Origin: Psococerastis gibbosa
Lineage: Eukaryota > Arthropoda > Insecta > Psocodea > Psocidae
Assembly (NCBI GenBank): GCA_963971405.1
Contig: OZ020488.1
Location: forward strand, 1,860,001 to 1,924,000
DNA length: 64,000 bases
Direction of reading: 5' to 3'
The first letter of the stretch is position 1. Every line of letters begins with the position of its first letter. The notes under the pieces are model-generated. The model was given only the letters and a program-made list of their open reading frames with translations. It did no database searches and was not told where the DNA came from. Below are positions 5,008-24,440 of this stretch, piece after piece. The position numbers and the translations under genes are program-made.

Positions 5008-5319
5008 CAGAGGCGTAAACTTTTAGAATGATGGCAGAGGCAAAACTAAGTAGACCTTATGACGTCATAAGGCAGGATTTAAGGAAAAATTGAAAATATA
5101 AGAGCAAAATAGTAGGGTTTTACGAATTTTAATAGTTGTAAAGTATAGCTGTAGATTTTACAAAGCTAAAAAAGGAATGCTTATATTAATATTGCTGCAA
5201 AGGGAACCATGAAGTATGGACCACGTCTTAGAATGCTCAAGGCTGGGGGAGCCCCCCCCCCCAAAAGGAGCTGGGGGGCGAGTTGGACCTTGCCCCCCCC
5301 CCCCAACTTTACGCCCCTG
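5008..5319. mobile_element. hAT-like non-autonomous element with C tracts
   Basis: The termini are CAGAGGCGTAAAC and its inverted partner TTTACGCCCCTG. Two C tracts lie near the right end. The inside carries a segment (AAATATAAGAGCAAAATAGTA and following) that recurs in the elements near 46450-47240. The target duplication is unclear, so the superfamily is inferred from similarity to the better-bounded elements at 27367 and 46306. Confidence 0.45.
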
Positions 5320-6620
5320 ATTTAAACTAACTTGTACTATTTGATCATCAAGCTTGGTTCTGTTCTATTCGCATGAGTTCCTGACGGCATTTATGTCCAT
5401 ACTAAGCGCCTATTGTATTTGTACAGTCAGTTTTGAGTCGGCCCATGAAATAATTATCTTTTCGTCAGTGCTAAATTTATTCACTTAATCAACACTGCAA
5501 CTCATTCTACACTTAGGCCACGCAATCATCAGAGCGGCTGGCAGCTTCATCGACCTCTGGGACACATTGCAACGTTCTGCCCGTTGAAGCAACTAATTAC
5601 CAACTGATATAGACTCTGCGAGTTTTTCTGTCTGTCAACTTGTCCGCTTTGATTGATTTACTGGAGGTTGGCTGCCATGAGCTCGCCAAAGATGCCGCGC
5701 TCTCACTCGCAGAGGCTCCTATACTTAACTTTCGAAGCAATCCGTCAGCTTTGAGCGAAGGACACCTAATTACTCTCCGCAGTTGCTCTTTGCAATTCAT
5801 TCTTACGTACTGCCTGTCAGCGAAGAGCCCTGAGTCCGACAGGAAAAAAACTGGCCGTCCGTCTCATGGGATGACGGATCCCTACTAATGAGAAATGTCA
5901 ACGGTCGGCTTGTGGAAGCTCTGCCATGAATCACTCGCTCAAATAACCTTTCCCAACATCAGAATGCTCGCTATAGGTATATTGCAGGAATCGCTGGTTT
6001 AAGATTTGCTATGCCCTCTCAAGCAAGGGGTGTCCTGCACCAAAAATTTATAACTTAAATGTCTTTATTAGTTAGACCAGGGGTCCGGATCTCGGGAACC
6101 CCTGACTCCGGAGCCAACCAAGGCTAACCTAAGTCTCCACGTTTTCCTCCCGTACTTAGATGCTCTACTGACAACGAGTATAATATGCACTCTTAATGCA
6201 GATCTAGACCGATGCATTTGCATTATGATGTCTAGCCTTGCATGTTGGTTTGCTACTTTAAAGCATATGCATCCCCCGCCAGCTCGGGCTCCATTTTTCA
6301 ATCTCTTCCTTTCTTTAATAATTCTCCTACCATGTCTTTCTATAACTTCTAATTGCTGTTATAAGATAACATACAATATTATAATAGAGAGATAAAAAGA
6401 AAAAGAAGCCCAGTTTTGAGGGCTTATCTTAATATACTGTATATATTTCGACTGTCCGTGTGTATGCTCCGGGCCTCCTTTCAAACAACTGGACCGATTA
6501 TGATGAATATTGTTTTGTGTGTTCAAGGAGATTCGAGGATGGTTTAGATTAACACTTTCGTCCACTGGAGAATGTTTTTATAATTTGATTTAGGAATATT
6601 TTACATTGGTGCGTGTACAT
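5320..6620. other. gene-free intergenic stretch
   Basis: Open frames at 5640-5888 and 6068-6301 were inspected and show no recognisable motif. They overlap open frames on the other strand and sit in plain intergenic DNA. Nothing else could be supported. Confidence 0.4.
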
Positions 6621-9110: not shown

Positions 9111-9219
9111 AATAATTTATACAATCCACCTGACCTTGTACCTGAAAAAATACTGACGGTATGGACCTACAATTAAATTGAAAGTATATACTTACGATCA
9201 AATTCTCACAAATTAGTTT

Positions 9220-9330
9220 GGCGGGGTTTCCACATACGTCAATGGTCAGTGGCAAATGAGGTATTTAATGTCTGCTACCACGTCAAAACCATATTTACCA
9301 TTGACCATTGACGTACGTGGAAACCCCGCC
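9220..9330. mobile_element. small Harbinger-like MITE
   Basis: The ends are GGCGGGGTTTCCACATACGT and its inverted partner, pairing for about 40 bp. The loop carries the CTGCTACCACGTCAAAACC block shared with the MITE at 2403. TTT lies on both sides, an off-consensus 3-bp duplication. Its right end is only 16 bp from the edge of the large palindrome. Confidence 0.6.
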
Positions 9331-9399
9331 TTTTGGATTAGTTACTAGTAGAGTAGAAAGGGGGTTTCTGGCGCTTATCCCACCCCCCGTCGTGCTATC

Positions 9400-9760
9400 C
9401 CATCTATCCCCCGCGGGTGGTCTATCTATTTTTGTGTGTTACCCCTCGTGGGTGGTCTGAGGTTCTGGCACCATGATCGTTTTTTTTTTTATAATTACTA
9501 ATTTGTGAGATACAGAGTTATTTTTTTTTATTTTTTTATTTTTTTTATTTTATTTTTTTTTTTTATTTATTTATTTTTTTTTTATTTTTTTTTTAATGGT
9601 GTTAATTGAATTAAAACATTTCTTTCTTCTTCTTTCTTCTTCGTGGGTGGTCTTTGTACCCCGCCGTGCTTATCCCGTTGTCTATCTATCTCTGTACCAG
9701 GTGGGTGGTCTATGACGCACCCCCCCCCCCCCTCCCCGTACAGCCAGACATCTAGAAGGT
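9400..9760. promoter_or_regulatory. left subterminal iterations (GTGGGTGGTC) and T-rich tract
   Basis: The motif (C/G)GGGTGGTC occurs at about 9414, 9449, 9643 and 9701, with another copy at 10950 just before the polymerase leader. It is often followed by TCTATCTAT. A ~110-bp T-rich run (9481-9593) and a 13-C run (9720-9732) lie between copies. Iterated motifs near the ends of replicating linear DNAs commonly bind initiation or end-recognition proteins; that role here is inference. Confidence 0.45.
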
Positions 9761-9770
9761 TCTAAATGTG

Positions 9771-9877
9771 TCGTTACAAAAGGCATCACCTTGGGTTGAG
9801 GAGCTTAGTTGAAGCCAAACCTTCATTCAAGACTCAAGTAATACCACTTTATACGTAAAATTGTATAATCTTACAAC
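9771..9877 (+). promoter_or_regulatory. leader/promoter module of the OB-fold-like gene, left arm
   Basis: This 107-bp segment ends at the start codon at 9878 and is nearly the same as the segment at 10961-11062 before the polymerase. Shared blocks include ACAAAAGGCATC, CCTTGGGTTGAGGAGCTTAG and ACCTTCATTC, and finally AATACCACTT. The similarity stops being strict near the ATG. Two genes sharing one module argues for common transcriptional control. Confidence 0.6.
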
Positions 9878-10183
9878 ATGACATCTCTATTCAATAAAGT
9901 TAATGCTATCAACCAAGTAGCCGGGCCTACCATACCAATGCGAAAGCTAGTGATTGGAGTTAAATACCTAATATTGAAAATAGTGCAAATCGAAAAAACA
10001 GAATATGGACCAGCTGTAAAAGTCATACTGCGAGGATTGGAAAAAGAAGTCGTGGAATGTTTTGTGCCTCAACAATATCTGCCAGCCTTTCAACAAAGTG
10101 AAGTTACTCCAGGAGCTGAGATGTATCTTATCGTTTCAAGCCATCGGGGAAAAAATAGTGTCAACCTACAGATCATAGAATGA
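9878..10183 (+). CDS. 101-residue OB-fold-like protein, left arm (candidate ssDNA-binding protein)
   Basis: The intact frame starts at an ATG directly after the shared leader module. The product is 101 residues, without signal peptide or membrane segment. It alternates short beta-strand-like stretches: KLVIGVKYLILKIVQIEK (about 23-40), then TEYGPAVKVIL, then EVVECFVPQQYL (about 57-68), and a final MYLIVSSHRGKNSVNLQI (about 82-99). This order of five strands with a G-P turn fits a small OB fold. Placed next to a DNA polymerase and under the same leader, a single-stranded DNA-binding role is the best guess. This is inference from pattern and context; no family name is claimed. The right-arm copy translates to the same protein. 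Confidence 0.7.
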   Translation: MTSLFNKVNAINQVAGPTIPMRKLVIGVKYLILKIVQIEKTEYGPAVKVILRGLEKEVVECFVPQQYLPAFQQSEVTPGAEMYLIVSSHRGKNSVNLQIIE

Positions 10184-10483
10184 ATATTTCATGATGTATT
10201 ATTATTGTAAACTACAGAAATAATGTAAATATATGAATAATTTCTATATATATTTTTGTTCTTGTTTTATTAATTGCATAATTAGTTTTAAGCTTATAGT
10301 TAGATGATGATGAGTATTAAAAACTAATGGTTGAAAGAAACAAGCTATTGCTTCAGTCATAATCGAGTACTTGAACGGTGAAGGGTTATCTTAATCATAG
10401 ACTATGAAATGATGTAAATCAAATAATTAAACGAGTACATTAGCTAATTAATTTTAATAAATCTATCCGAAGCATATGTTTAT
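10184..10483. other. spacer between the two element genes
   Basis: The 300 bp after the OB-fold-like gene is AT-rich and has no open frame. It ends where the 195-bp tandem repeat begins. Confidence 0.5.
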
Positions 10484-10855
10484 GGGAAGTATTGATTTGG
10501 TAAACAAATAACAGAGTGCAGGTTCAAACCTGTTGTGAATCACCAGGTGCATATAACTCTGTACAGTCGTCTAATGGTTCAAACAAACAAGCCATTAATA
10601 AATCTACCCCTCGCTGACAGTCCATTGTAAGCTAAAGTGATTTTTGTTTTCGTAAATCTATCCAACACTTAGGTTGAAGGGAAGTATTGATTTGGCAAAC
10701 AAATAACAGAGTGCAGGTTCAAACCTGTTGTGAATCACCAGGTGCATATAACTCTGTACAGCCGTCTAATGGTTCAAACAAACAAGCCATTAATAAATCT
10801 ACCCCTCGCTGACAGTCCATTGTAAGCTAAAGTGATTTTTGTTTTTGCATTAGTT
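10484..10855 (+). repeat. 195-bp tandem duplication with conserved stem-loop, left arm
   Basis: Two units start at 10484 and 10679 with GGGAAGTATTGATTTGG. Each contains ACAGAGT and ACTCTGT (10511-10517 and 10556-10562 in unit 1), which can pair as a 7-bp stem. That stem encloses a hairpin CAGGTT-CA-AACCTG. The core GGTTCAAACC matches the pol III B-box pattern, and T runs follow at the unit end. The two units are almost the same in this core. It may be a structured RNA, a cruciform or a protein-binding site. Confidence 0.6.
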
Positions 10856-10960
10856 GCAATCGATAGTTAGAAAATGAATGGTGTCTTAACAACATATTAT
10901 CCGCTTCGTGATGGACAATCTATCCCTGTACCCTTACCATCTATCCTTCGTGGGTGGTCG

Positions 10961-11062
10961 TCGCTACAAAAGGCATCGCCTTGGGTTGAGGAGCTTAGTT
11001 GAAACCGAACCTTCATTCGCGTAATACCACTTCAGTGTAGTGAATTTGTGTAATCGTACAGC
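10961..11062 (+). promoter_or_regulatory. leader/promoter module of the polymerase gene, left arm
   Basis: This 102-bp segment is the partner of 9771-9877. It carries CTACAAAAGGCATCGCC, TTGGGTTGAGGAGCTTAGTT and CGAACCTTCATTC. A TTCAGT at about 11031 resembles an arthropod initiator. A copy of GTGGGTGGTC lies directly upstream at 10950. Confidence 0.6.
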
Positions 11063-14000
11063 ATGGAATCGAAGAAAAGGAAACTGAACGCGAGGGAATA
11101 TGTGTGTAGAATATGTGCTGTGAGTTTCACACTAAATTGCAATTTAAAAAGACATGTCATAAACAAACATGGAGTTAGTATTATACCATGCAAAAAATGT
11201 AAAGCCACATTCACATGCAGAGAGGACCTATCTCATCATATATTGCAGCGGCATACATCAGCAAATCACGGGATGGAAATTGTACAAACTCGCCCAAAAC
11301 TGACATCTGCTGGGAATGGAGAGGACTGCAAGGCATGCGGGGGCAAAATCAACAACTCCAGTCCACTTACAGTTCTGTGTAAAGAATGTTCATCTATCTT
11401 TTCGTGTAAGTATGAGAATCCTGTATCTGTTAAAACCCTTGAGTGTAAATATATTTGTGAATTCTGTTCGGTCCCTTTTGCTCGGAAGTATAGTTTGAAA
11501 GTCCACATATTAAGCATACATATTATTAATTGTTTGAATTGCAAGAAATTGTTTATGAGGGAAGATTTTACTAATCATAAGAATAATTGCACAATTATGA
11601 GCGGGGGAGCACTATCCAACGAGGAGAACTTTTTATGCAAAACATCTATAGCTCTAGATGGTGTAGTAAAACAATACAATTATAAAAACATAACCATACA
11701 TGATCCCGTTGTATATTTAAATAATATGGAAGGTGAGGTTGATTCTATTACAACTGAAAACATTAAACTTTTTAATGCAATTAAATGGTATGTAGCCTTA
11801 CACATTAAATTTGAACGCGGACCCGACAATAATAAAAACTATACTGAAGCATGGTTTCATGCTAAAAACGAACAACTTTTCCTCACTGATGACTCCACAA
11901 TAAAATATCAACAAATGATTGAACAAATTTTAGTAAAAATAGATAAATTTCAAGCAATGGGAAGCGGGTGGGTGTTGAAATCTTTAAAACATTTTGTTAT
12001 TTTTATTGCTGAATATAATCCATGCAGTGGTAGTAGTTACATCCCTTTACCCAAAAAAATCTATAACACTAAAGCAGTAATCAATATTAAAAATGACGAT
12101 CTCAAATGTTTTATATGGTCAATTTTAGCATACTTACATCCAGTAAGTCGGGATGCTCAGCGGGTTTATAATTATAAAAAGTATGAAAAAGAGTTAGATA
12201 TGAAAGGTATAACTTACCCAGTATCTTTGCAAGTCATTTCAAAATTTGAAAAAAATAATAATATTGGAGTAAATGTGTTTGGTTATGATCACAGACTGTA
12301 CCCATTATATTTATCACAAAGTCACCATTATAATAAGCAGGTGGATCTGCTTTACATAACGGAAGACGAAAATTCACATTATTGTCTTATTAAAAATTTC
12401 AACAAACTTAATTTCTCAATCACTAAACATAAGGAACAAAAGTTTTATTGTCGTTGGTGCATACACGCCTTTAGTAGTGCTGAACGCTTACATGAACATA
12501 AGCCACTCTGCTCAAGACATGATCCTCAAAAAACCACATTTCCAATTCAGGAGAAAAGCACTATGAAATTTGATAAGGCACAATATATGATCCCTGTAGC
12601 ATATAGAATATATGCCGATTTCGAGAGCATTCTCAGTCCCGTTGAAGGGACTATTTGTAACACTGAAAAATTATCTGCACATATACCATCAGGGTTTTGT
12701 TATGTTGTTGTAGATATCAATGGGAATAAGTTTAAAGAACCGGTAGTTTACAGGGGAGCTAATGCTGTTGATGTGTTTTTGAAATCGTTATTAAATGTTA
12801 AGGATGAAATTTTAAACATTTATAAAAATATTAAAGCAGTAATTATGACTGACGAGGATAGAGAAAATTTTAAAAACTCTGTCATTTGTAATGTTTGTCA
12901 AAAACCACTAGGAAATGATCGTGTAATAGACCACTGTCATATAACGGGGAAATATAGACAAGCATTACATAATGTTTGTAATATGAGCAATTTTCGAACT
13001 CCAAAACATATCCCCGTTTTTATGCATAACTTAAAACGTTATGATGGTCATCTTATCATGGAAGGGGTTGGGAAACTAAAAAATATGAAAATTACTTGTA
13101 TAGCTAAAACTATGGAGGAATATATAGCCTTTAGTATTGGAGAGTTACGCTTTTTAGACACTTATCAATTTATGGCCTCCTCTTTAGATTCATTAGTCAA
13201 AAATCTTGTTGATGCGGATAAAAATAAATTTAAAATTATGAAAACATGTTTTGTGGGTGAAAAATTAGACTTGATGTTGAGGAAGGGTGTCTTCCCCTAT
13301 GAATATATAACGCACGAATCAAAATTTAATGAGGAACACTTACCTCCAATTGATGCATTTTTTAGTCAATTAACTCAAGAGGGGATTTCACAAGAAAAAT
13401 ATGAACATGCTCAAAAGGTGTGGAATGCTTTTAGTATAAAGAATTTAGGAGAATACCAAGACTTGTATGTATTAACAGACACCCTTCTCCTTTGCGATGT
13501 TTTTGAAGCCTTTAGAGCCTTATGTTTTGAAAACGATAACCTCGAAATTTGTCACATGTACACAGCACCAGGGCTAGCTCTTCAGAGCTGTCTGAAAATG
13601 ACAGGAGTAGAACTTGAGCTATTGAGCGAACCTGATATGTATTTGTTTTGTGAGGCTGGGATTCGCGGGGGTATAAGTATGATTTCAAAAAGATTTGCGG
13701 AAAGCAACAATAAATACTTAAAAAAATTTGACTCAAATAAGCCATCCAAATTTATAGTATATTGGGATTGCACTAACTTATACGGACATGCGATGCGTCA
13801 ATTTTTACCTATTAGTGGGTTTCGCTGGATGGAGGAGGAAGAAATCAAAAACTTTAATGTAATGCTCGCACCTGATGAGGGCGATGATGGGTTCATATTA
13901 CAGGTGGACATGGAATATCCACAAAAATTACATGATTTACATAATGAATACCCACTAGCAGCTGAACATTGTGTTGTAACATCAGACATGATTTCCCCCT

Positions 14001-15043
14001 ATTGTAAGGAATTTCTCGCTGAAAATGATATATCTTTAACATCCAACTTCTCAAAGCTTATTCCCAACTTAAACGATAAACACAACTATATAATACATTA
14101 TCGAAATTTGAAGCAATGTTTAGAATTGGGATTAAAATTAAAATGTATACATAAAATTTTAGCTTTTAAGCAAAGCGCTTGGATGCGACCCTTTATCGAT
14201 TTTAACACAGAAAAACGGAAATTAGCTTGTAATGATTTCGAGAAGGATTTTTATAAATTGAAAATTAATAGTATGTATGGGAAGACAATGGAGAATGTTA
14301 GAAATCACGCAAAATTAGAGTTAGTTAACACTGCCAAACGAGCTCGTAAACTTATCTCATCCCCTGCATTTAAAGATTTTAAGATTTTTTCAAACGATTT
14401 AATAGCAGTCCGGTCAAAAAAAACTAATATTTTGCTAAACAAGCCAATATTTATTGGCCTAACCGTTCTCGAACTATCCAAGGTAGTTATGTATGAATTT
14501 CATTATAACTTTGTAAAACAAATGTATGGTGATAAAGCTGCACTGATTTTAACAGATACAGATTCGCTCGTTTATGAGGTTGAGAGTGATGATTTGTACA
14601 CTGATTTAAAACCATATCCCCATTTATTTGATAACTCAGTATATCCTCCGAACCATCTCTTATACAATATTGAAAATAAAAAGAAAGTGGGAACGTTCAA
14701 AGATGAAAATGCTCAATCTCACATTTTACAATGTGTTGCTTTACGCCCAAAATTGTATTCCCTTTTAGAGGAGGGAAAGGAGAAGAAAGTGGGCAAAGGT
14801 ATAGTTCGTTCAACCCTTAAACATCATATTAACCATCAAGACTATTACAATACCTTATTTAAGCCTTGCATAGCAAAAGACTCACGTAAACCAATGTTCC
14901 GTATTCAAAGTAGAGATCATAAGCTTTTTACAATTAAACAGCAAAAAGTCACTCTTAGTCCTTATGATGATAAACGGTATGTGTGTCGTAATGGAATTGA
15001 TAGTTTAGCTCATGGTCATTATCGCATTATAGATATGTCTTAG
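11063..15043 (+). CDS. family-B DNA polymerase with zinc fingers, left arm
   Basis: The intact 1326-residue frame starts at the ATG after the leader module. It opens with a basic KKRK and C2H2 fingers (C15/C18/H31/H36 and C43/C46/H59/H64), with more Cys/His clusters to about residue 170. A conserved middle region follows. Exonuclease motifs are complete: Exo I DFE (519-521), Exo II NLKRYD (656-661) and Exo III YVLTD (802-806). Polymerase motifs are DCTNLYG (902-908), KINSMYG (1067-1073) and DTDS (1165-1168), then a KLY motif. Between Exo I and Exo II sits a Cys-x2-Cys ... DHCHITGKYR ... Cys block (about 609-641) like recombination endonuclease VII. All acidic catalytic residues are kept, so it looks active. 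It resembles virus- and Polinton-type polymerases; protein priming is inferred from the class. Confidence 0.88.
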   Translation: MESKKRKLNAREYVCRICAVSFTLNCNLKRHVINKHGVSIIPCKKCKATFTCREDLSHHILQRHTSANHGMEIVQTRPKLTSAGNGEDCKACGGKINNSSPLTVLCKECSSIFSCKYENPVSVKTLECKYICEFCSVPFARKYSLKVHILSIHIINCLNCKKLFMREDFTNHKNNCTIMSGGALSNEENFLCKTSIALDGVVKQYNYKNITIHDPVVYLNNMEGEVDSITTENIKLFNAIKWYVALHIKFERGPDNNKNYTEAWFHAKNEQLFLTDDSTIKYQQMIEQILVKIDKFQAMGSGWVLKSLKHFVIFIAEYNPCSGSSYIPLPKKIYNTKAVINIKNDDLKCFIWSILAYLHPVSRDAQRVYNYKKYEKELDMKGITYPVSLQVISKFEKNNNIGVNVFGYDHRLYPLYLSQSHHYNKQVDLLYITEDENSHYCLIKNFNKLNFSITKHKEQKFYCRWCIHAFSSAERLHEHKPLCSRHDPQKTTFPIQEKSTMKFDKAQYMIPVAYRIYADFESILSPVEGTICNTEKLSAHIPSGFCYVVVDINGNKFKEPVVYRGANAVDVFLKSLLNVKDEILNIYKNIKAVIMTDEDRENFKNSVICNVCQKPLGNDRVIDHCHITGKYRQALHNVCNMSNFRTPKHIPVFMHNLKRYDGHLIMEGVGKLKNMKITCIAKTMEEYIAFSIGELRFLDTYQFMASSLDSLVKNLVDADKNKFKIMKTCFVGEKLDLMLRKGVFPYEYITHESKFNEEHLPPIDAFFSQLTQEGISQEKYEHAQKVWNAFSIKNLGEYQDLYVLTDTLLLCDVFEAFRALCFENDNLEICHMYTAPGLALQSCLKMTGVELELLSEPDMYLFCEAGIRGGISMISKRFAESNNKYLKKFDSNKPSKFIVYWDCTNLYGHAMRQFLPISGFRWMEEEEIKNFNVMLAPDEGDDGFILQVDMEYPQKLHDLHNEYPLAAEHCVVTSDMISPYCKEFLAENDISLTSNFSKLIPNLNDKHNYIIHYRNLKQCLELGLKLKCIHKILAFKQSAWMRPFIDFNTEKRKLACNDFEKDFYKLKINSMYGKTMENVRNHAKLELVNTAKRARKLISSPAFKDFKIFSNDLIAVRSKKTNILLNKPIFIGLTVLELSKVVMYEFHYNFVKQMYGDKAALILTDTDSLVYEVESDDLYTDLKPYPHLFDNSVYPPNHLLYNIENKKKVGTFKDENAQSHILQCVALRPKLYSLLEEGKEKKVGKGIVRSTLKHHINHQDYYNTLFKPCIAKDSRKPMFRIQSRDHKLFTIKQQKVTLSPYDDKRYVCRNGIDSLAHGHYRIIDMS

Positions 15044-15285
15044 GTTTAAAAGTTTGTTTTAAGTGATTGTATGTAAAGACATTGATTTCTTTTAAAATAT
15101 GTGTATTATAAAATTTGTATATCATAAAATGGTTTACATTCGTTTAGCTCATGGTCATTATTGTATTATAGATAAGTCTTAGGCTTAAAAGCTTGTTTTA
15201 AGTGATTGTATGAAAAGACATTGATTTCTTTTAAAATATGTGTATTATAAAATTTATATATCATAAAATGGTTTACATTCATTTA
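15004..15285 (+). repeat. 139-bp tandem duplication of the polymerase 3' end, left arm
   Basis: The last codons of the polymerase (TTTAGCTCATGGTCATTAT onward) plus its 3' flank are repeated immediately downstream at 15143. The second copy is out of the reading frame context and ends in the same TCTTAGG sequence. The right arm has the same arrangement at about 18015-18296. Confidence 0.7.
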
Positions 15286-15639
15286 CAATAGTTGATGTAC
15301 AATACCAGTTAAAGGTACATATTCATATAAGCAGTCGCTGATGAGTAGACAGTCCCTTTATTTGCCATGCAGACAACCCTTTATATATTGGAGTGCATAA
15401 GGTCGGTGGCCATTTCAGTCCCCCTCGCATTAAGATTATGACACATCGCTATTAATTCAGGTACGCCGATATAATAAGTGCACTCAGCATCTTAAAAGAA
15501 ATGTATTAATCCCACAATAGGTGTTCAATATACCCACCAGCCGTGTTTATAAAAATGAATTTTCAATAATCCCAACTAAGTCTCAGTTTCTCACAATAGG
15601 TGTGCAATATACCAGGCAGTCGTGTTTTCTATGTTAGAT
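15286..15639. other. non-coding spacer before the satellite, left arm
   Basis: About 350 bp without an open frame separates the duplicated 3' end from the satellite. It contains a repeated CACAATAGGTGTNCAATATAC sequence of about 20 bp in two versions (near 15515 and 15594). Confidence 0.45.
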
Positions 15640-17660
15640 TTAGTTACATTGGGCTAGGACAGGTTAAGTTATAATATTAGGCTAGGTTAAATTTTTATAT
15701 CAAGTTAGGATAGGTTACATTGGATTAGGATAGGCCAGATTAGGTTACATTGGGTTAGGTTAGCTGTTTACCTAGATTAAATTCATCATTTTTTTTTTAA
15801 CAAAAATATTTTTATATCAAATAAATATGATGTTAAGTTAGGTTACATTGAATTAGGATAGGTTAGATTAGGTTACATTGGATTAGGATAGGCCAGATTA
15901 CGTTACATTGGGTTAGGTTAGCTGTTTACCTAGATTAAATTCATCATTTTTTTAACAAAAATATTTTTATATCAAATAAATATGATGTTAAGTTAGGTTA
16001 CATTGAATTAGGATAGGTTAGATTAGGTTACATTGGGTGCAATATACCAGGCAGTTGTGTTTTCTATGTTAGATTTAGTTACATTGGGCTAGGACAGGTT
16101 AAGTTTTAATATTAGTCTAGGTTAAATTTTTATATCAAGTTAGGGTAGGTTACATTGGATTAGGATAGGCCAGATTAGGTTACATTGGGTTAGGTTAGCT
16201 GTTTACCTAGATTAAATTCATCATTTCTTTTTTTAAAAAAAATATTTTTTATATCAAATAAATATAATGTTAAGTTAGGTTACATTGAATTAGGATAGGT
16301 TAGATTAGGTTACATTGGATTAGGATAGGCCAGATTAGGTTACATTGGGTTAGGTTAGCTGTTTACCTAGATTAAATTCATCATTTTTTTAACAAAAATA
16401 TTTTTATATCAAATAAATATGATGTTAAGTTAGGTTACATTGAATTAGGATAGGTTAGATTAGGTTACATTGGATTAGGATAGGCCAGATTAGGTTACAT
16501 TGGGTTAGGTTAGCTGTTTACCTAGATTACATTCATCATTTTTTTAACAAAAATATTTTTATATCAAATAAATATGACGTTAAGTTAGGTTACATTGAAT
16601 TAGGATAGGTTACATTAGGTTACATTGGGTTAGGATAGGTTAAGTTAGCCGCTAACTTAACCTATCCTAACCCAATGTAACCTAATGTAACCTATCCTAA
16701 TTCAATGTAACCTAACTTAACGTCATATTTATTTGATATAAAAATATTTTTGTTAAAAAAATGATGAATGTAATCTAGGTAAACAGCTAACCTAACCCAA
16801 TGTAACCTAATCTGGCCTATCCTAATCCAATGTAACCTAATCTAACCTATCCTAATTCAATGTAACCTAACTTAACATCATATTTATTTGATATAAAAAT
16901 ATTTTTGTTAAAAAAATGATGAATTTAATCTAGGTAAACAGCTAACCTAACCCAATGTAACCTAATCTGGCCTATCCTAATCCAATGTAACCTAATCTAA
17001 CCTATCCTAATTCAATGTAACCTAACTTAACATTATATTTATTTGATATAAAAAATATTTTTTTTAAAAAAAGAAATGATGAATTTAATCTAGGTAAACA
17101 GCTAACCCAATGTAACCTAATCTGGCCTATCCTAATCCAATGTAACCTAATCTAACCTATCCTAATTCAATGTAACCTAACTTAACATTATATTTATTTG
17201 ATATAAAAAATATTTTTTTTAAAAAAAGAAATGATGAATTTAATCTAGGTAAACAGCTAACCTAACCCAATGTAACCTAATCTGGCCTATCCTAATCCAA
17301 TGTAACCTACCCTAACTTGATATAAAAATTTAACCTAGACTAATATTAAAACTTAACCTGTCCTAGCCCAATGTAACTAAATCTAACATAGAAAACACAA
17401 CTGCCTGGTATATTGCACCCAATGTAACCTAATCTAACCTATCCTAATTCAATGTAACCTAACTTAACATCATATTTATTTGATATAAAAATATTTTTGT
17501 TAAAAAAAAAATGATGAATTTAATCTAGGTAAACAGCTAACCTAACCCAATGTAACCTAATCTGGCCTATCCTAATCCAATGTAACCTATCCTAACTTGA
17601 TATAAAAATTTAACCTAGCCTAATATTATAACTTAACCTGTCCTAGCCCAATGTAACTAA
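15640..17660. repeat. TTAGG-rich central satellite, two inverted blocks meeting at 16650
   Basis: Units of about 165 bp carry runs such as GGTTACATTGGGTTAGG and GATTAGGATAGGCCAGATTA plus an AT-rich part with ATCAAATAAATATGATGTTA. On the left the units read toward the centre; on the right they are inverted. The turning point is TAAGTTAGC-C-GCTAACTTA. A GTGCAATATACCAGGCAG block interrupts the array twice per arm. Between these interruptions the left arm has two units and the right arm one, while nearer the centre the right arm has one more, so total lengths stay almost equal. Confidence 0.8.
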
Positions 17661-18256
17661 ATCTAACATAGAAAACACGACTGCCTGGTATATTGCACAC
17701 CTATTGTGAGAAACTGAGACTTAGTTGGGATTATTGAAAATTCATTTTTATAAACACGGCTGGTGGGTATATTGAACACCTATTGTGGGATTAATACATT
17801 TCTTTTAAGATGCTGAGTGCACTTATTATATCGGCGTACCTGAATTAATAGCGATGTGTCATAATCTTAATGCGAGGGGGACTGAAATGGCCACCGACCT
17901 TATGCACTCCAATATATAAAGGGTTGTCTGCATGGCAAATAAAGGGACTGTCTACTCATCAGCGACTGCTTATATGAATATGTACCTTTAACTGGTATTG
18001 TACATCAACTATTGTAAATGAATGTAAACCATTTTATGATATATAAATTTTATAATACACATATTTTAAAAGAAATCAATGTCTTTTCATACAATCACTT
18101 AAAACAAGCTTTTAAGCCTAAGACTTATCTATAATACAATAATGACCATGAGCTAAACGAATGTAAACCATTTTATGATATACAAATTTTATAATACACA
18201 TATTTTAAAAGAAATCAATGTCTTTACATACAATCACTTAAAACAAACTTTTAAAC

Positions 18257-21200
18257 CTAAGACATATCTATAATGCGATAATGACCATGAGCTAAACTAT
18301 CAATTCCATTACGACACACATACCGTTTATCATCATAAGGACTAAGAGTGACTTTTTGCTGTTTAATTGTAAAAAGCTTATGATCTCTACTTTGAATACG
18401 GAACATTGGTTTACGTGAGTCTTTTGCTATGCAAGGCTTAAATAAGGTATTGTAATAGTCTTGATGTTTAATATGATGTTTAAGGGTTGAACGAACTATA
18501 CCTTTGCCCACTTTCTTCTCCTTTCCCTCCTCTAAAAGGGAATACAATTTTGGGCGTAAAGCAACACATTGTAAAATGTGAGATTGAGCATTTTCATCTT
18601 TGAACGTTCCCACTTTCTTTTTATTTTCAATATTGTATAAGAGATGGTTCGGAGGATATACTGAGTTATCAAATAAATGGGGATATGGTTTTAAATCAGT
18701 GTACAAATCATCACTCTCAACCTCATAAACGAGCGAATCTGTATCTGTTAAAATCAGTGCAGCTTTATCACCATACATTTGTTTTACAAAGTTATAATGA
18801 AATTCATACATAACTACCTTGGATAGTTCGAGAACGGTTAGGCCAATAAATATTGGCTTGTTTAGCAAAATATTAGTTTTTTTTGACCGGACTGCTATTA
18901 AATCGTTTGAAAAAATCTTAAAATCTTTAAATGCAGGGGATGAGATAAGTTTACGAGCTCGTTTGGCAGTGTTAACTAACTCTAATTTTGCGTGATTTCT
19001 AACATTCTCCATTGTCTTCCCATACATACTATTAATTTTCAATTTATAAAAATCCTTCTCGAAATCATTACAAGCTAATTTCCGTTTTTCTGTGTTAAAA
19101 TCGATAAAGGGTCGCATCCAAGCGCTTTGCTTAAAAGCTAAAATTTTATGTATACATTTTAATTTTAATCCCAATTCTAAACATTGCTTCAAATTTCGAT
19201 AATGTATTATATAGTTGTGTTTATCGTTTAAGTTGGGAATAAGCTTTGAGAAGTTGGATGTTAAAGATATATCATTTTCAGCGAGAAATTCCTTACAATA
19301 GGGGGAAATCATGTCTGATGTTACAACACAATGTTCAGCTGCTAGTGGGTATTCATTATGTAAATCATGTAATTTTTGTGGATATTCCATGTCCACCTGT
19401 AATATGAACCCATCATCGCCCTCATCAGGTGCGAGCATTACATTAAAGTTTTTGATTTCTTCCTCCTCCATCCAGCGAAACCCACTAATAGGTAAAAATT
19501 GACGCATCGCATGTCCGTATAAGTTAGTGCAATCCCAATATACTATAAATTTGGATGGCTTATTTGAGTCAAATTTTTTTAAGTATTTATTGTTGCTTTC
19601 CGCAAATCTTTTTGAAATCATACTTATACCCCCGCGAATCCCAGCCTCACAAAACAAATACATATCAGGTTCGCTCAATAGCTCAAGTTCTACTCCTGTC
19701 ATTTTCAGACAGCTCTGAAGAGCTAGCCCTGGTGCTGTGTACATGTGACAAATTTCGAGGTTATCGTTTTCAAAACATAAGGCTCTAAAGGCTTCAAAAA
19801 CATCGCAAAGGAGAAGGGTGTCTGTTAATACATACAAGTCTTGGTATTCTCCTAAATTCTTTATACTAAAAGCATTCCACACCTTTTGAGCATGTTCATA
19901 TTTTTCTTGTGAAATCCCCTCTTGAGTTAATTGACTAAAAAATGCATCAATTGGAGGTAAGTGTTCCTCATTAAATTTTGATTCGTGCGTTATATATTCA
20001 TAGGGGAAGACACCCTTCCTCAACATCAAGTCTAATTTTTCACCCACAAAACATGTTTTCATAATTTTAAATTTATTTTTATCCGCATCAACAAGATTTT
20101 TGACTAATGAATCTAAAGAGGAGGCCATAAATTGATAAGTGTCTAAAAAGCGTAACTCTCCAATACTAAAGGCTATATATTCCTCCATAGTTTTAGCTAT
20201 ACAAGTAATTTTCATATTTTTTAGTTTCCCAACCCCTTCCATGATAAGATGACCATCATAACGTTTTAAGTTATGCATAAAAACGGGGATATGTTTTGGA
20301 GTTCGAAAATTGCTCATATTACAAACATTATGTAATGCTTGTCTATATTTCCCCGTTATATGACAGTGGTCTATTACACGATCATTTCCTAGTGGTTTTT
20401 GACAAACATTACAAATGACAGAGTTTTTAAAATTTTCTCTATCCTCGTCAGTCATAATTACTGCTTTAATATTTTTATAAATGTTTAAAATTTCATCCTT
20501 AACATTTAATAACGATTTCAAAAACACATCAACAGCATTAGCTCCCCTGTAAACTACCGGTTCTTTAAACTTATTCCCATTGATATCTACAACAACATAA
20601 CAAAACCCTGATGGTATATGTGCAGATAATTTTTCAGTGTTACAAATAGTCCCTTCAACGGGACTGAGAATGCTCTCGAAATCGGCATATATTCTATATG
20701 CTACAGGGATCATATATTGTGCCTTATCAAATTTCATAGTGCTTTTCTCCTGAATTGGAAATGTGGTTTTTTGAGGATCATGTCTTGAGCAGAGTGGCTT
20801 ATGTTCATGTAAGCGTTCAGCACTACTAAAGGCGTGTATGCACCAACGACAATAAAACTTTTGTTCCTTATGTTTAGTGATTGAGAAATTAAGTTTGTTG
20901 AAATTTTTAATAAGACAATAATGTGAATTTTCGTCTTCCGTTATGTAAAGCAGATCCACCTGCTTATTATAATGGTGACTTTGTGATAAATATAATGGGT
21001 ACAGTCTGTGATCATAACCAAACACATTTACTCCAATATTATTATTTTTTTCAAATTTTGAAATGACTTGCAAAGATACTGGGTAAGTTATACCTTTCAT
21101 ATCTAACTCTTTTTCATACTTTTTATAATTATAAACCCGCTGAGCATCCCGACTTACTGGATGTAAGTATGCTAAAATTGACCATATAAAACATTTGAGA

Positions 21201-22237
21201 TCGTCATTTTTAATATTGATTACTGCTTTAGTGTTATAGATTTTTTTGGGTAAAGGGATGTAACTACTACCACTGCATGGATTATATTCAGCAATAAAAA
21301 TAACAAAATGTTTTAAAGATTTCAACACCCACCCGCTTCCCATTGCTTGAAATTTATCTATTTTTACTAAAATTTGTTCAATCATTTGTTGATATTTTAT
21401 TGTGGAGTCATCAGTGAGGAAAAGTTGTTCGTTTTTAGCATGAAACCATGCTTCAGTATAGTTTTTATTATTGTCGGGTCCGCGTTCAAATTTAATGTGT
21501 AAGGCTACATACCATTTAATTGCATTAAAAAGTTTAATGTTTTCAGTTGTAATAGAATCAACCTCACCTTCCATATTATTTAAATATACAACGGGATCAT
21601 GTATGGTTATGTTTTTATAATTGTATTGTTTTACTACACCATCTAGAGCTATAGATGTTTTGCATAAAAAGTTCTCCTCGTTGGATAGTGCTCCCCCGCT
21701 CATAATTGTGCAATTATTCTTATGATTAGTAAAATCTTCCCTCATAAACAATTTCTTGCAATTCAAACAATTAATAATATGTATGCTTAATATGTGGACT
21801 TTCAAACTATACTTCCGAGCAAAAGGGACCGAACAGAATTCACAAATATATTTACACTCAAGGGTTTTAACAGATACAGGATTCTCATACTTACACGAAA
21901 AGATAGATGAACATTCTTTACACAGAACTGTAAGTGGACTGGAGTTGTTGATTTTGCCCCCGCATGCCTTGCAGTCCTCTCCATTCCCAGCAGATGTCAG
22001 TTTTGGGCGAGTTTGTACAATTTCCATCCCGTGATTTGCTGATGTATGCCGCTGCAATATATGATGAGATAGGTCCTCTCTGCATGTGAATGTGGCTTTA
22101 CATTTTTTGCATGGTATAATACTAACTCCATGTTTGTTTATGACATGTCTTTTTAAATTGCAATTTAGTGTGAAACTCACAGCACATATTCTACACACAT
22201 ATTCCCTCGCGTTCAGTTTCCTTTTCTTCGATTCCAT
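18257..22237 (-). CDS. family-B DNA polymerase with zinc fingers, right arm
   Basis: This is the inverted copy of the left-arm polymerase, also intact at 1326 residues with the same fingers, exonuclease and polymerase motifs. The only amino-acid difference I see is one Asn-to-Lys change near residue 1255, in a TLKHHI(N/K)HQDYY context. Both copies keeping an open frame suggests recent origin or ongoing homogenisation between arms. It is transcribed toward the centre, facing the left-arm copy. Confidence 0.88.
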   Translation of the reverse strand: MESKKRKLNAREYVCRICAVSFTLNCNLKRHVINKHGVSIIPCKKCKATFTCREDLSHHILQRHTSANHGMEIVQTRPKLTSAGNGEDCKACGGKINNSSPLTVLCKECSSIFSCKYENPVSVKTLECKYICEFCSVPFARKYSLKVHILSIHIINCLNCKKLFMREDFTNHKNNCTIMSGGALSNEENFLCKTSIALDGVVKQYNYKNITIHDPVVYLNNMEGEVDSITTENIKLFNAIKWYVALHIKFERGPDNNKNYTEAWFHAKNEQLFLTDDSTIKYQQMIEQILVKIDKFQAMGSGWVLKSLKHFVIFIAEYNPCSGSSYIPLPKKIYNTKAVINIKNDDLKCFIWSILAYLHPVSRDAQRVYNYKKYEKELDMKGITYPVSLQVISKFEKNNNIGVNVFGYDHRLYPLYLSQSHHYNKQVDLLYITEDENSHYCLIKNFNKLNFSITKHKEQKFYCRWCIHAFSSAERLHEHKPLCSRHDPQKTTFPIQEKSTMKFDKAQYMIPVAYRIYADFESILSPVEGTICNTEKLSAHIPSGFCYVVVDINGNKFKEPVVYRGANAVDVFLKSLLNVKDEILNIYKNIKAVIMTDEDRENFKNSVICNVCQKPLGNDRVIDHCHITGKYRQALHNVCNMSNFRTPKHIPVFMHNLKRYDGHLIMEGVGKLKNMKITCIAKTMEEYIAFSIGELRFLDTYQFMASSLDSLVKNLVDADKNKFKIMKTCFVGEKLDLMLRKGVFPYEYITHESKFNEEHLPPIDAFFSQLTQEGISQEKYEHAQKVWNAFSIKNLGEYQDLYVLTDTLLLCDVFEAFRALCFENDNLEICHMYTAPGLALQSCLKMTGVELELLSEPDMYLFCEAGIRGGISMISKRFAESNNKYLKKFDSNKPSKFIVYWDCTNLYGHAMRQFLPISGFRWMEEEEIKNFNVMLAPDEGDDGFILQVDMEYPQKLHDLHNEYPLAAEHCVVTSDMISPYCKEFLAENDISLTSNFSKLIPNLNDKHNYIIHYRNLKQCLELGLKLKCIHKILAFKQSAWMRPFIDFNTEKRKLACNDFEKDFYKLKINSMYGKTMENVRNHAKLELVNTAKRARKLISSPAFKDFKIFSNDLIAVRSKKTNILLNKPIFIGLTVLELSKVVMYEFHYNFVKQMYGDKAALILTDTDSLVYEVESDDLYTDLKPYPHLFDNSVYPPNHLLYNIENKKKVGTFKDENAQSHILQCVALRPKLYSLLEEGKEKKVGKGIVRSTLKHHIKHQDYYNTLFKPCIAKDSRKPMFRIQSRDHKLFTIKQQKVTLSPYDDKRYVCRNGIDSLAHGHYRIIDMS

Positions 22238-22339
22238 GCTGTACGATTACACAAATTCACTACACTGAAGTGGTATTACGCGAATGAAGGTTCGGTTTCA
22301 ACTAAGCTCCTCAACCCAAGGCGATGCCTTTTGTAGCGA
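22238..22339 (-). promoter_or_regulatory. leader/promoter module of the polymerase gene, right arm
   Basis: This is the mirror copy of 10961-11062, directly upstream of the right-arm polymerase start on the minus strand. The GTGGGTGGTC motif lies just outside it, at about 22341-22350. Confidence 0.6.
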
Positions 22340-22444
22340 CGACCACCCACGAAGGATAGATGGTAAGGGTACAGGGATAGATTGTCCATCACGAAGCGGA
22401 TAATATGTTGTTAAGACACCATTCATTTTCTAACGATCGATTGC

Positions 22445-22816
22445 AACTAATGCAAAAACAAAAATCACTTTAGCTTACAATGGACTGTCAGCGAGGGGTA
22501 GATTTATTAATGGCTTGTTTGTTTGAACCATTAGACGGCTGTACAGAGTTATATGCACCTGGTGATTCACAACAGGTTTGAACCTGCACTCTGTTATTTG
22601 TTTGCCAAATCAATACTTCCCTTCAACCTAAGTGTTGGATAGATTTACGAAAACAAAAATCACTTTAGCTTACAATGGACTGTCAGCGAGGGGTAGATTT
22701 ATTAATGGCTTGTTTGTTTGAACCATTAGACGACTGTACAGAGTTATATGCACCTGGTGATTCACAACAGGTTTGAACCTGCACTCTGTTATTTGTTTAC
22801 CAAATCAATACTTCCC
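22445..22816 (-). repeat. 195-bp tandem duplication with conserved stem-loop, right arm
   Basis: This is the mirror copy of 10484-10855, with two units and the same CAGGTT/AACCTG hairpin inside the ACAGAGT/ACTCTGT stem. Just inside it (about 22438) one base differs from the left arm: GATAGTTAG against GATCGTTAG. Confidence 0.6.
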
Positions 22817-23116
22817 ATAAACATATGCTTCGGATAGATTTATTAAAATTAATTAGCTAATGTACTCGTTTAATTATTTGATTTACATCATTTCATAGTC
22901 TATGATTAAGATAACCCTTCACCGTTCAAGTACTCGATTATGACTGAAGCAATAGCTTGTTTCTTTCAACCATTAGTTTTTAATACTCATCATCATCTAA
23001 CTATAAGCTTAAAACTAATTATGCAATTAATAAAACAAGAACAAAAATATATATAGAAATTATTCATATATTTACATTATTTCTGTAGTTTACAATAATA
23101 ATACATCATGAAATAT

Positions 23117-23422
23117 TCATTCTATGATCTGTAGGTTGACACTATTTTTTCCCCGATGGCTTGAAACGATAAGATACATCTCAGCTCCTGGAGTAACTTC
23201 ACTTTGTTGAAAGGCTGGCAGATATTGTTGAGGCACAAAACATTCCACGACTTCTTTTTCCAATCCTCGCAGTATGACTTTTACAGCTGGTCCATATTCT
23301 GTTTTTTCGATTTGCACTATTTTCAATATTAGGTATTTAACTCCAATCACTAGCTTTCGCATTGGTATGGTAGGCCCGGCTACTTGGTTGATAGCATTAA
23401 CTTTATTGAATAGAGATGTCAT
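23117..23422 (-). CDS. 101-residue OB-fold-like protein, right arm (candidate ssDNA-binding protein)
   Basis: This is the inverted copy of the left-arm gene and encodes the same protein. It lies behind the mirrored leader module and upstream of the right-arm polymerase in the same transcriptional direction. The predicted strand-rich 101-residue fold and the inferred ssDNA-binding role are as for the left copy. Confidence 0.7.
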   Translation of the reverse strand: MTSLFNKVNAINQVAGPTIPMRKLVIGVKYLILKIVQIEKTEYGPAVKVILRGLEKEVVECFVPQQYLPAFQQSEVTPGAEMYLIVSSHRGKNSVNLQIIE

Positions 23423-23529
23423 GTTGTAAGATTATACAATTTTACGTATAAAGTGGTATTACTTGAGTCTTGAATGAAGGTTTGGCTTCAACTAAGCTCC
23501 TCAACCCAAGGTGATGCCTTTTGTAACGA
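23423..23529 (-). promoter_or_regulatory. leader/promoter module of the OB-fold-like gene, right arm
   Basis: This is the mirror copy of 9771-9877, preceding the right-arm gene on the minus strand. The neighbouring homopolymer is 14 G here against 13 C on the left, one of the small length differences between arms. Confidence 0.6.
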
Positions 23530-23951
23530 CACATTTAGAACCTTCTAGATGTCTGGCTGTACGGGGAGGGGGGGGGGGGGGTGCGTCATAGACCACCCAC
23601 CTGGTACAGAGATAGATAGACAACGGGATAAGCACGGCGGGGTACAAAGACCACCCACGAAGAAGAAAGAAGAAGAAAGAAATGTTTTAATTCAATTAAC
23701 ACCATTAAAAAAAAAATAAAAAAAAAAAAATAAATAAAAAAAAAAAATAAAAAAAAAAAATAAAAAAATAAAAAAAAATAACTCTGTATCTCACAAATTA
23801 GTAATTATAAAAAAAAAACGATCATGGTGCCAGAACCTCAGACCACCCACGAGGGGTAACACACAAAAATAGATAGACCACCCGCGGGGGATAGATGGGA
23901 TAGCACGACGGGGGGTGGGATAAGCGCCAGAAACCCCCTTTCTACTCTACT

Positions 23952-24440
23952 CATTAGGTCTCAAATTTGTGCATGAAGCAATTAAAAACAAACTTTTTAG
24001 AACATTTTTACGTGCGCCACAGGGATGAAAAACCTCCAACTTTTGTAATGAAGTCAGAAGCTCAACACTTAATTTGACAGTAAAGCGCCAGAAATAGGTA
24101 AAACTGCAATTATTTGAAATAATACAAGTCAAATACGGAACAGGTACGAGACGCGGGGCTTTGTTTATAAAATGGATATTCAACGATCCCGTACGCAATT
24201 CGGCGGGGAAATAGCCTGCACAAGCTAACTACTAAACTTCATAGTTTTTGACCGGGTCCAGGCATCCGCTTTGCTATGCTGCAATGTGTAAGACTTTGAT
24301 ATTTTTTGCGTTGGTCCTTATCTCTGATAGTTGGCTTATGGTTAACGGGTGCCTCGTAAGGCATATTATGGCTCCCGCCGCTCCAGTTCTATTAAATATT
24401 TCTATGTATTCAACGCTCAACGGTCAAGGCCACAACCCTT
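23952..24440 (-). repeat. dispersed repeat R, copy 2, abutting the palindrome
   Basis: This is the inverted copy of 1666-2231. Its shared sequence begins exactly at the edge of the palindrome (CATTAGGTCT...). It lacks about 60 bp present in copy 1. Either the palindrome cut the repeat here or the repeat naturally ends at this point. Confidence 0.6.

Follow-up and report, generated by a model that had tools for sequence, protein, structure and literature searches.

A dispersed palindromic element apparently derived from the polymerase end of a Polinton in the genome of Psococerastis gibbosa

Snap-back genomes are usually regarded as short-lived by-products of virus stocks. Symmetric incomplete adenovirus genomes resemble the element described here (denoted A) in being inverted duplications of a single terminus of a linear genome that replicates by protein priming; unlike A, they are not known as heritable dispersed insertions. 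Among integrated elements, vertebrate Mavericks have AGT-type ends on their terminal inverted repeats and are flanked by 6-bp target duplications (PMC8097293).

Element A is located at 9347-23951 of the window, the 64,000-nucleotide stretch of P. gibbosa DNA that was analysed. It is an inverted repeat with arms of ~7.3 kb (left arm 9347..16649, plus strand; right arm 16651..23951, minus strand) around a single odd base, 16650. The outer 6535-nt blocks of the arms share 99.91% identity, and a gap-free block of 6162 nt shows 2 mismatches between left and right arm, confirming the original prediction of a tail-to-tail palindrome with ~7-kb inverted arms. The element end, AGTAGAGTAG, lies at 9347..9356 (plus strand) and is mirrored at 23942-23951. 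It opens a region, 9347..10918 (plus strand; mirror ~22382-23951), which corresponds to the terminal inverted repeat common to both ends of a complete Polinton of the same genome (denoted B) and includes two tandem repeats of 195 nt each (10452..10841, plus strand; mirror 22455-22844). Comparison with B also identified a stub resembling the N-terminus of its 233-aa gene (10874..11002, plus strand) and the last 22 codons of its capsid (double jelly roll) gene (15286..15351, minus strand; mirror ~17949-18014). In place of the remaining capsid gene there are ~250 bp of other sequence (15354..15601, plus strand), followed by an AGGTTA-type tandem array with 33 TTAGG in one orientation (15602..16649, plus strand), which leads to the axis, GGTTAAGTTAGC C GCTAACTTAACC (16638..16662). 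The G-rich strand of the TTAGG-rich array runs toward the axis.

Two intact genes per arm had been predicted, and both open reading frames are open in both arms. The first encodes a 101-aa protein (9878-10183, plus strand; 23117-23422, minus strand) and the second a 1326-aa family-B DNA polymerase (11063-15043, plus strand; 18257-22237, minus strand), the left-arm and right-arm polymerases differing by one residue. Beyond this pair, no arm ORF of at least 90 aa resembles an integrase, protease, ATPase or capsid; the claim that the arms lack such genes holds for ORFs of this size but overlooked the 22-codon capsid stub. The family-B assignment is supported by 5190 homologs, some carrying PF03175, a domain for which a Pfam search found no match in the 1326-aa polymerase itself. 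The polymerase had also been called a zinc-finger protein, a label favoured by PDB zinc-finger matches (best E 2.6e-05) but matched in Pfam by sub-threshold C2H2 lines only. A scan of viral contigs with the single polymerase sequence detected no relative, and scans with the whole protein and with a profile detected one, on IMG/VR contig L001, where it adjoins capsid and integrase genes. With such genes as its neighbours in both L001 and B, the polymerase of A belongs to the Polinton lineage. The 101-aa protein matched nothing in the PDB, the protein database or PHROGs, had no relative in the scan of viral contigs and no match to a 151-aa protein of L001, and gave a single, sub-threshold Pfam line (YfbU, E 0.13). 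Its predicted model (single-sequence fold, mean pLDDT 47) is too poor for structure search, leaving the earlier OB-fold-like label unproven.

In B, integrase, ATPase, PLA2-like, protease-like and capsid genes lie beside an A-type polymerase. We assigned its domains as an rve integrase, a Pox_A32-type ATPase and a DJR capsid protein, while the protease call is a sub-threshold Peptidase_C5 match (E 0.0047). Together with the PolB gene, inverted repeats and a 6-bp duplication, these genes give B the features of a Polinton/Maverick. A fully bounded copy of 14.29 kb at C2:34419564-34433849, flanked by AAGGGG at each side, was read except for 34421501-34424799. Integrase-like matches in the genome number 129, a figure that includes retroelement-like frames and does not count B copies. 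A bipartite genome, in which A would carry the polymerase and B would not, was considered and dropped, as B carries its own polymerase.

Arm positions 1-1936 of A are 99.7% identical to the C2 copy of B, and positions 5236-6007 are 99.6% identical. In both B copies read, similarity extends no further than arm position 6007, and in the C2 copy the capsid gene runs on beyond the equivalent position. The capsid stub of A is identical to the end of the B capsid gene at 22 of 22 codons (tblastn, E 1.8e-10). The two elements thus have in common their ends, the 101-aa gene, the polymerase and 6-bp target duplications, A being without the integrase, ATPase, protease and capsid genes that B has. By these alignments, each arm of A corresponds to B's polymerase end, truncated within the capsid gene and extended by ~1.3 kb to a fixed axis; A derives by deletion from a Polinton of this genome that bears capsid and integrase genes. 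The original prediction had proposed an undescribed, independent element carrying only a replication module. The two open genes per arm and the high copy number of the A-specific joint would suit a self-replicating element tied to Polintons solely by its polymerase, but the capsid stub, ends and 101-aa gene shared with B refute this as to origin and A has no integrase of its own, making such independence highly improbable. The same gene pair was indeed found elsewhere, in B. The competing possibility named at the outset, a deleted Polinton, is what we found for the origin of A; its other part, that relatives would always have capsid and integrase genes, does not hold, however, as the palindromic form itself has spread without these genes.

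To describe the dispersal of A, we examined its ends and joints across the genome. The joint specific to A occurs 239 times; the first 100 of these include 27 convergent pairs within 3 kb, 0 divergent pairs and 4 same-strand pairs. The element-end motif was present in 33 of 34 fetched head-end flanks (with a few mismatches in 2 of the 33), and outward of each the host DNA differed. A perfect 6-bp target duplication was detected in 14 of 23 adjacent end pairs tested, C1:5876619, C19:20482559 and C21:3773079 being examples of loci with a duplicated target, and 18 of 2016 end-flank pairs matched, compared with 0.49 expected. Six of the 14 pairs have unread interiors (C14:14245088, C15:34479786, C20:2302818, C20:15544952, C20:18115733 and C21:5243335), two were read on one arm alone and six were read as polymerase arms on both sides. 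Thus A shows terminal inverted repeats, AG/AGT-type ends and 6-bp target duplications at dispersed loci. Among 29 polymerase genes fetched elsewhere, 25 are identical to the left-arm gene of the window and 4 have one base difference, and 13 singleton substitutions were counted over 31 arms, a set biased to best matches; the near identity of the polymerase copies and the few singletons suggest that A spread recently. Read in this way, the assembly indicates that the palindrome moves as a unit and is dispersed as many near-identical palindromic copies. The earlier idea of a mobile element is therefore borne out, by the duplications and the 239 joints.

The window locus itself is less regular. 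No target duplication was found at its flanks, and its right flank (23952..24439) is a repeat with a paralog at 1681-2226 that lacks the element. This paralogous empty site shows that the partner of the right flank is the left flank of another element, located 46 kb upstream. Because the duplication is missing, the locus is probably misassembled or recombined. A broader artefact, in which the assembler folded single arms or complete Polintons into false palindromes, would also account for this flank match, for the three ungapped palindromes (14605, 14606 and 14608 bp), the window included, that are among the 9 of 23 end pairs without a duplication, and for the 200-N gaps that many copies have at the axis or close to it. 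We consider it improbable: the axis is base-exact at 20 loci, with an odd C at 10 and an odd G at 10, which random fold-back reads would not yield; the duplications join two ends of one arm type at all 14 pairs, including the six with polymerase arms on both sides; and the joint between capsid stub and array is missing from both B copies read. The 10:10 split is what a single asymmetric base would give if insertion took place in both orientations.

Of 20 centre stretches fetched, 10 contained the axis, 3 lay within an arm and 7 were gap or unrelated sequence. The length of the array up to the axis varies by locus (719-721, 1038 and 1311 nt) and the two sides agree in 4 of the 5 ungapped centres, the exception being L132 (720/1332 nt). 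At C1:25645554 and C3:36820495, symmetry is limited to 36-48 nt at the axis. Varying yet matched arrays, together with the near-identical arms, could mean that what inserts is a 7.3-kb element with a single arm, such as a hairpin-ended linear molecule, from which the palindrome re-forms each time, upon insertion or later. This is rather unlikely, since one ungapped centre is asymmetric and the copy at C12:1042707, which stops 24 nt beyond the axis, is already palindromic. In addition, the search for single-arm copies proposed originally gave no well-bounded one among the sequence read.

Taken together, we propose, with a probability of about 0.8, that A is a palindromic derivative of the Polinton/adintovirus-type element B, a folded-back polymerase end that spreads with its own or B's polymerase and with B's integrase acting in trans. 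As an inverted duplication of one Polinton end around one axis, A is best read as a symmetric snap-back satellite that kept its polymerase and would borrow the integrase of B, perhaps also its capsid. Protein-primed, strand-displacing replication of B would release or leave a broken strand, whose 3' end would fold onto itself at a short inverted repeat, the GTTAGC-N-GCTAAC of the axis, to yield a self-complementary molecule with an identical replication end on either side. Its own polymerase, or that of B, could replicate this molecule from both of its identical ends, and the integrase of B could insert it in trans, a step we infer solely from the shared ends. Packaging in the capsid of B may also occur, which the lengths of A (14.61 kb) and of B's fully bounded copy (14.29 kb) would fit. 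The earlier expectation that protein-primed linear DNA replication gives tail-to-tail dimers is plausible for A, whose origin by this route we infer. More tentatively, A may be a Polinton virus satellite of long standing, self-complementary, of a size for B's capsid and integrated by B's integrase, with the TTAGG array perhaps a telomere-like cap acquired during the healing of a broken Polinton end, before fold-back; replication through hairpin intermediates would then keep the arms identical despite changes in array length.

If the satellite reading holds, a snap-back-type molecule appears here to have turned into a heritable, amplified mobile element with its own polymerase, and A would be a genomic record of the Polinton replication mode. 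A and B suggest helper/satellite, two-component relations within one genome, and A could give rise to double-stranded RNA directed against its parent. Multi-copy, perfect palindromes of 14.6 kb also break assemblies, which may have concealed similar elements elsewhere.

Literature searches, at the level of listings and in open-licence literature, found no description of a palindromic Polinton derivative. Invertrons and linear plasmids are extrachromosomal linear DNA with a terminal protein, while A was studied in its assembled, integrated form. In the excerpts available, bidnaviruses resemble A in their Polinton-derived PolB and inverted termini, and have two segments; they differ in ssDNA, a parvovirus-type capsid and an S3H gene, and those excerpts describe no palindromic segment (PMC4061559). 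Polintons/Mavericks (polintoviruses, adintoviruses) share with A, as far as the cited sections go, a PolB lineage of the protein-primed type, inverted repeats, AGT-type ends and 6-bp duplications (PMC8097293), whereas A is a palindrome over its entire length and lacks genes for an integrase, ATPase, protease and capsid. The snap-back genomes of AAV (5'-SBG) are, like A, self-complementary, built on one genome end and retain replication-gene sequence; AAV, however, is a parvovirus with rolling-hairpin replication, and its 5'-SBG carry only part of rep, in the portion of the report cited (PMC8235507). Unlike these, A has the polymerase gene in full and, in the assembly analysed, is a stable insertion present in many copies.

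Element A, the palindrome of the window, occupies 9347–23951, with arms of 7303 and 7301 nt mirrored about base 16650. The outer 6535 nt of its left and right arms are 99.91% identical, and each arm carries one gene of 101 amino acids and one polymerase gene of 1326 amino acids, the leaders of which are alike across ~110 nt. G+C content is mostly 29–37% within the palindrome versus ~39–44% in the adjoining DNA. The inner part of the arm is a tandem array with periods of 15, 30 and 155 nt. We noticed that the array at 15602–16649 (mirrored on the right) holds 33 TTAGG motifs in a single orientation, with the G-rich strand running towards the axis (base shuffles give 2.0); despite these, TTAGGTTAGG is absent from this array.

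The centre of the palindrome, GGTTAAGTTAGC-N-GCTAACTTAACC, was found at 13 loci (odd base C at six, G at seven) and at seven of eight further centres (C at four, G at three). If a palindrome with one fixed odd base can insert either way round, C and G should be equally frequent; 10 of each were observed. Twenty fetched centre stretches contained the axis in 10 cases, within-arm sequence in 3, and a gap or unrelated sequence in 7, several of which adjoin 200-N scaffold gaps. The distances from the axis to the joint, the A-specific junction in the arm, were equal on both sides to within 2 nt in four of five ungapped centres (719/721 twice, 1038/1038 and 1311/1311) and unequal in the fifth (720/1332). 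At C12:1042707 (contig:position) the mirror runs just 24 nt beyond the axis, and at C1:25645554 and C3:36820495 perfect symmetry is limited to 36–48 nt at the axis.

A protein search of the genome (409 Mb, 68 contigs) detected at least 35 polymerase copies, all of them open and with 100% identity to the query; as 35 of 1325 candidates were scored, with the window's right arm not included, this count is a minimum that favours the best matches. The polymerase coding sequence was the same as that of the window's left arm in 25 of 29 other fetched copies and differed by one base in four. Across ~5.4 kb compared in 31 arms, gap or N columns excluded, there were 13 substitutions, every one confined to a single arm. 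The joint occurs 239 times (123 + 116; at most one mismatch; control 0), and neighbours within 3 kb among the first 100 places formed 27 convergent, 0 divergent and 4 same-direction pairs. At the start of an unplaced contig, C55 (17000 bases; stretches L086/L087), 4 nt precede an element end, and the opposite end lies near 13,159.

The genome contains the terminal 30-mer of the element at 138 places, 72 forward and 66 reverse (0 for the reversed pattern as a control; 100 of the 138 places listed), and the end motif was present in 33 of 34 fetched head-end flanks, twice with substitutions, the remaining flank lying at an N run. A first test for target duplications, on the ends of 34 copies and the window's two, gave four matching 6-mer pairs, against a mean of 0.29 at offsets of 1–59 nt. 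Once further flanks were added, perfect matches (6/6) were seen in 14 of 23 adjacent end pairs, and an all-pairs test of 64 ends gave 18 matches in 2016 pairs versus 0.49 expected: the 14 adjacent pairs, a copy of the Polinton B at C2, and three pairs whose members are separated in the assembly (L051/L094, L107/window right and L108/L097). Both arms read as polymerase arms in six of the 14 duplicated pairs (C1:5876619, C1:46085350, C19:15608942, C19:20482559, C21:3773079 and C2:41899285); at C21:2250442 and C12:32407970 the reading covers one arm, and the interior of the other six is unread. At C2:41899285–41922155 three polymerase arms lie inside the one end pair sharing a duplication, a nested or rearranged copy. 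The nine adjacent pairs without duplication are the window, C13:1808696, C2:39318775, C1:3433760, C3:36818783, C14:4287671 (N run), C14:21744159, C1:25643843 and C2:41907993.

The window's flanking 6-mers differ (GTTACT versus CATTAG). Its right flank matches a repeat that is present inverted at 1681–2226, and the match ends at the element boundary. Another element, C13:1808696, lies 46 kb upstream. Its left flank, fused through a single CATTAG to the right flank in the window, gives a product that aligns with the window's own paralog over 288 uninterrupted columns (94.4%), extending 43 nt beyond the join; a single insertion was therefore truly bordered by these two flanks. Either misjoining of near-identical palindromes or real recombination accounts for the 46 kb and two half-elements now lying between the flanks. 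By eye, ~14 nt within the element at 9496–9512 (ACTAATTTGTGAGA) reappear inverted in the left flank at 9198–9220. MITE-like short self-complementary repeats with GGCGGGGTTTCC-type ends lie at 9220–9335, adjoining the element's left end, and at 2398–2548, near the empty-site paralog.

Of 8000 candidates scored, 5190 are related to the polymerase at E <= 0.001, with ~50% identity in the best; the source names comprise, among others, bivalves, gastropods, corals, an anemone and spiders. A profile built from 25 proteins matched one viral contig, L001 (17.4 kb), where we take the ORFs beside the polymerase relative, by their motifs, to be capsid, penton, ATPase and integrase. The L001 integrase query gave 129 matches among 598 candidates in the insect genome, and both loci read (C2, C13) lie inside a complete Polinton, B. 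The C2 copy (ends 34419564 and 34433849; 14286 bp; 6-bp duplication AAGGGG) comprises, in order, an end with the 101-aa gene, a stretch not read, the polymerase end, the capsid gene, a 236-aa ORF, protease-like, PLA2-like and ATPase genes, a 232-aa ORF, the integrase, 167- and 233-aa ORFs, and an end. Pfam matches are rve (1.4e-10), Pox_A32 (4.5e-9), Phospholip_A2_4 (5.6e-14), DJR-like (1.5e-90) and Peptidase_C5 (0.0047, below its cut-off). Of the 404 capsid codons at C2, 332 lie in stretch L135 at 99.7% and the other 72 in L100; at E <= 0.001, 1264 relatives of the protein were found, including named insects (a beetle, a bee, an aphid and an ant). At C13 the content of B is the same and the ends are more diverged.

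The arm of A resembles both B copies up to arm position 6007, past which B goes on into the capsid gene and A switches to other sequence. What A retains of the capsid gene is its final 22 codons, at 15286–15351, identical to those of B (22/22). Over the last 732 polymerase codons, A and the C13 copy of B differ by 10 synonymous and 6 non-synonymous changes (ratio 0.14; small sample). The analysis demonstrates the derivation of A from B, ends common to both, 6-bp duplications, one axis and many copies. No paper describing a palindromic derivative of a Polinton appeared in the literature listings searched.

The terminal 123 nt or arm pieces of A also occur on C59 (10200–17799), C25 (1–5700) and C1 (6294000; stretch 6301000–6304000) in a broken relative rich in 148-nt tandem repeats, with polymerase and capsid pieces at 90–97% identity; the terminal 123 nt are common to C59 and C25. 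On C59 the axis is mirrored in the same way, over the 306 nt read up to the contig end. The palindromic layout thus seems to predate the recent burst of copies. A 96-aa ORF in this relative resembles the end of a non-LTR retrotransposon.

A may have formed by fold-back; it would be replicated by the polymerase it encodes, integrated by the integrase of B, and possibly packaged. Element lengths are alike: ungapped copies of A measure 14605–14608 bp and the C2 copy of B 14286 bp, and extrapolation gives ~15.1 kb for the C13 copy of B and ~14.9 kb for the C59 form. Vertebrate Mavericks are reported to vary in length by ~10% around 17 kb, a size constraint in the authors' view (PMC8097293). AAV 5' snap-back genomes are reported to lower Rep expression, the authors suggesting via dsRNA (PMC8235507); the two convergent polymerase genes of A might act in a similar way.
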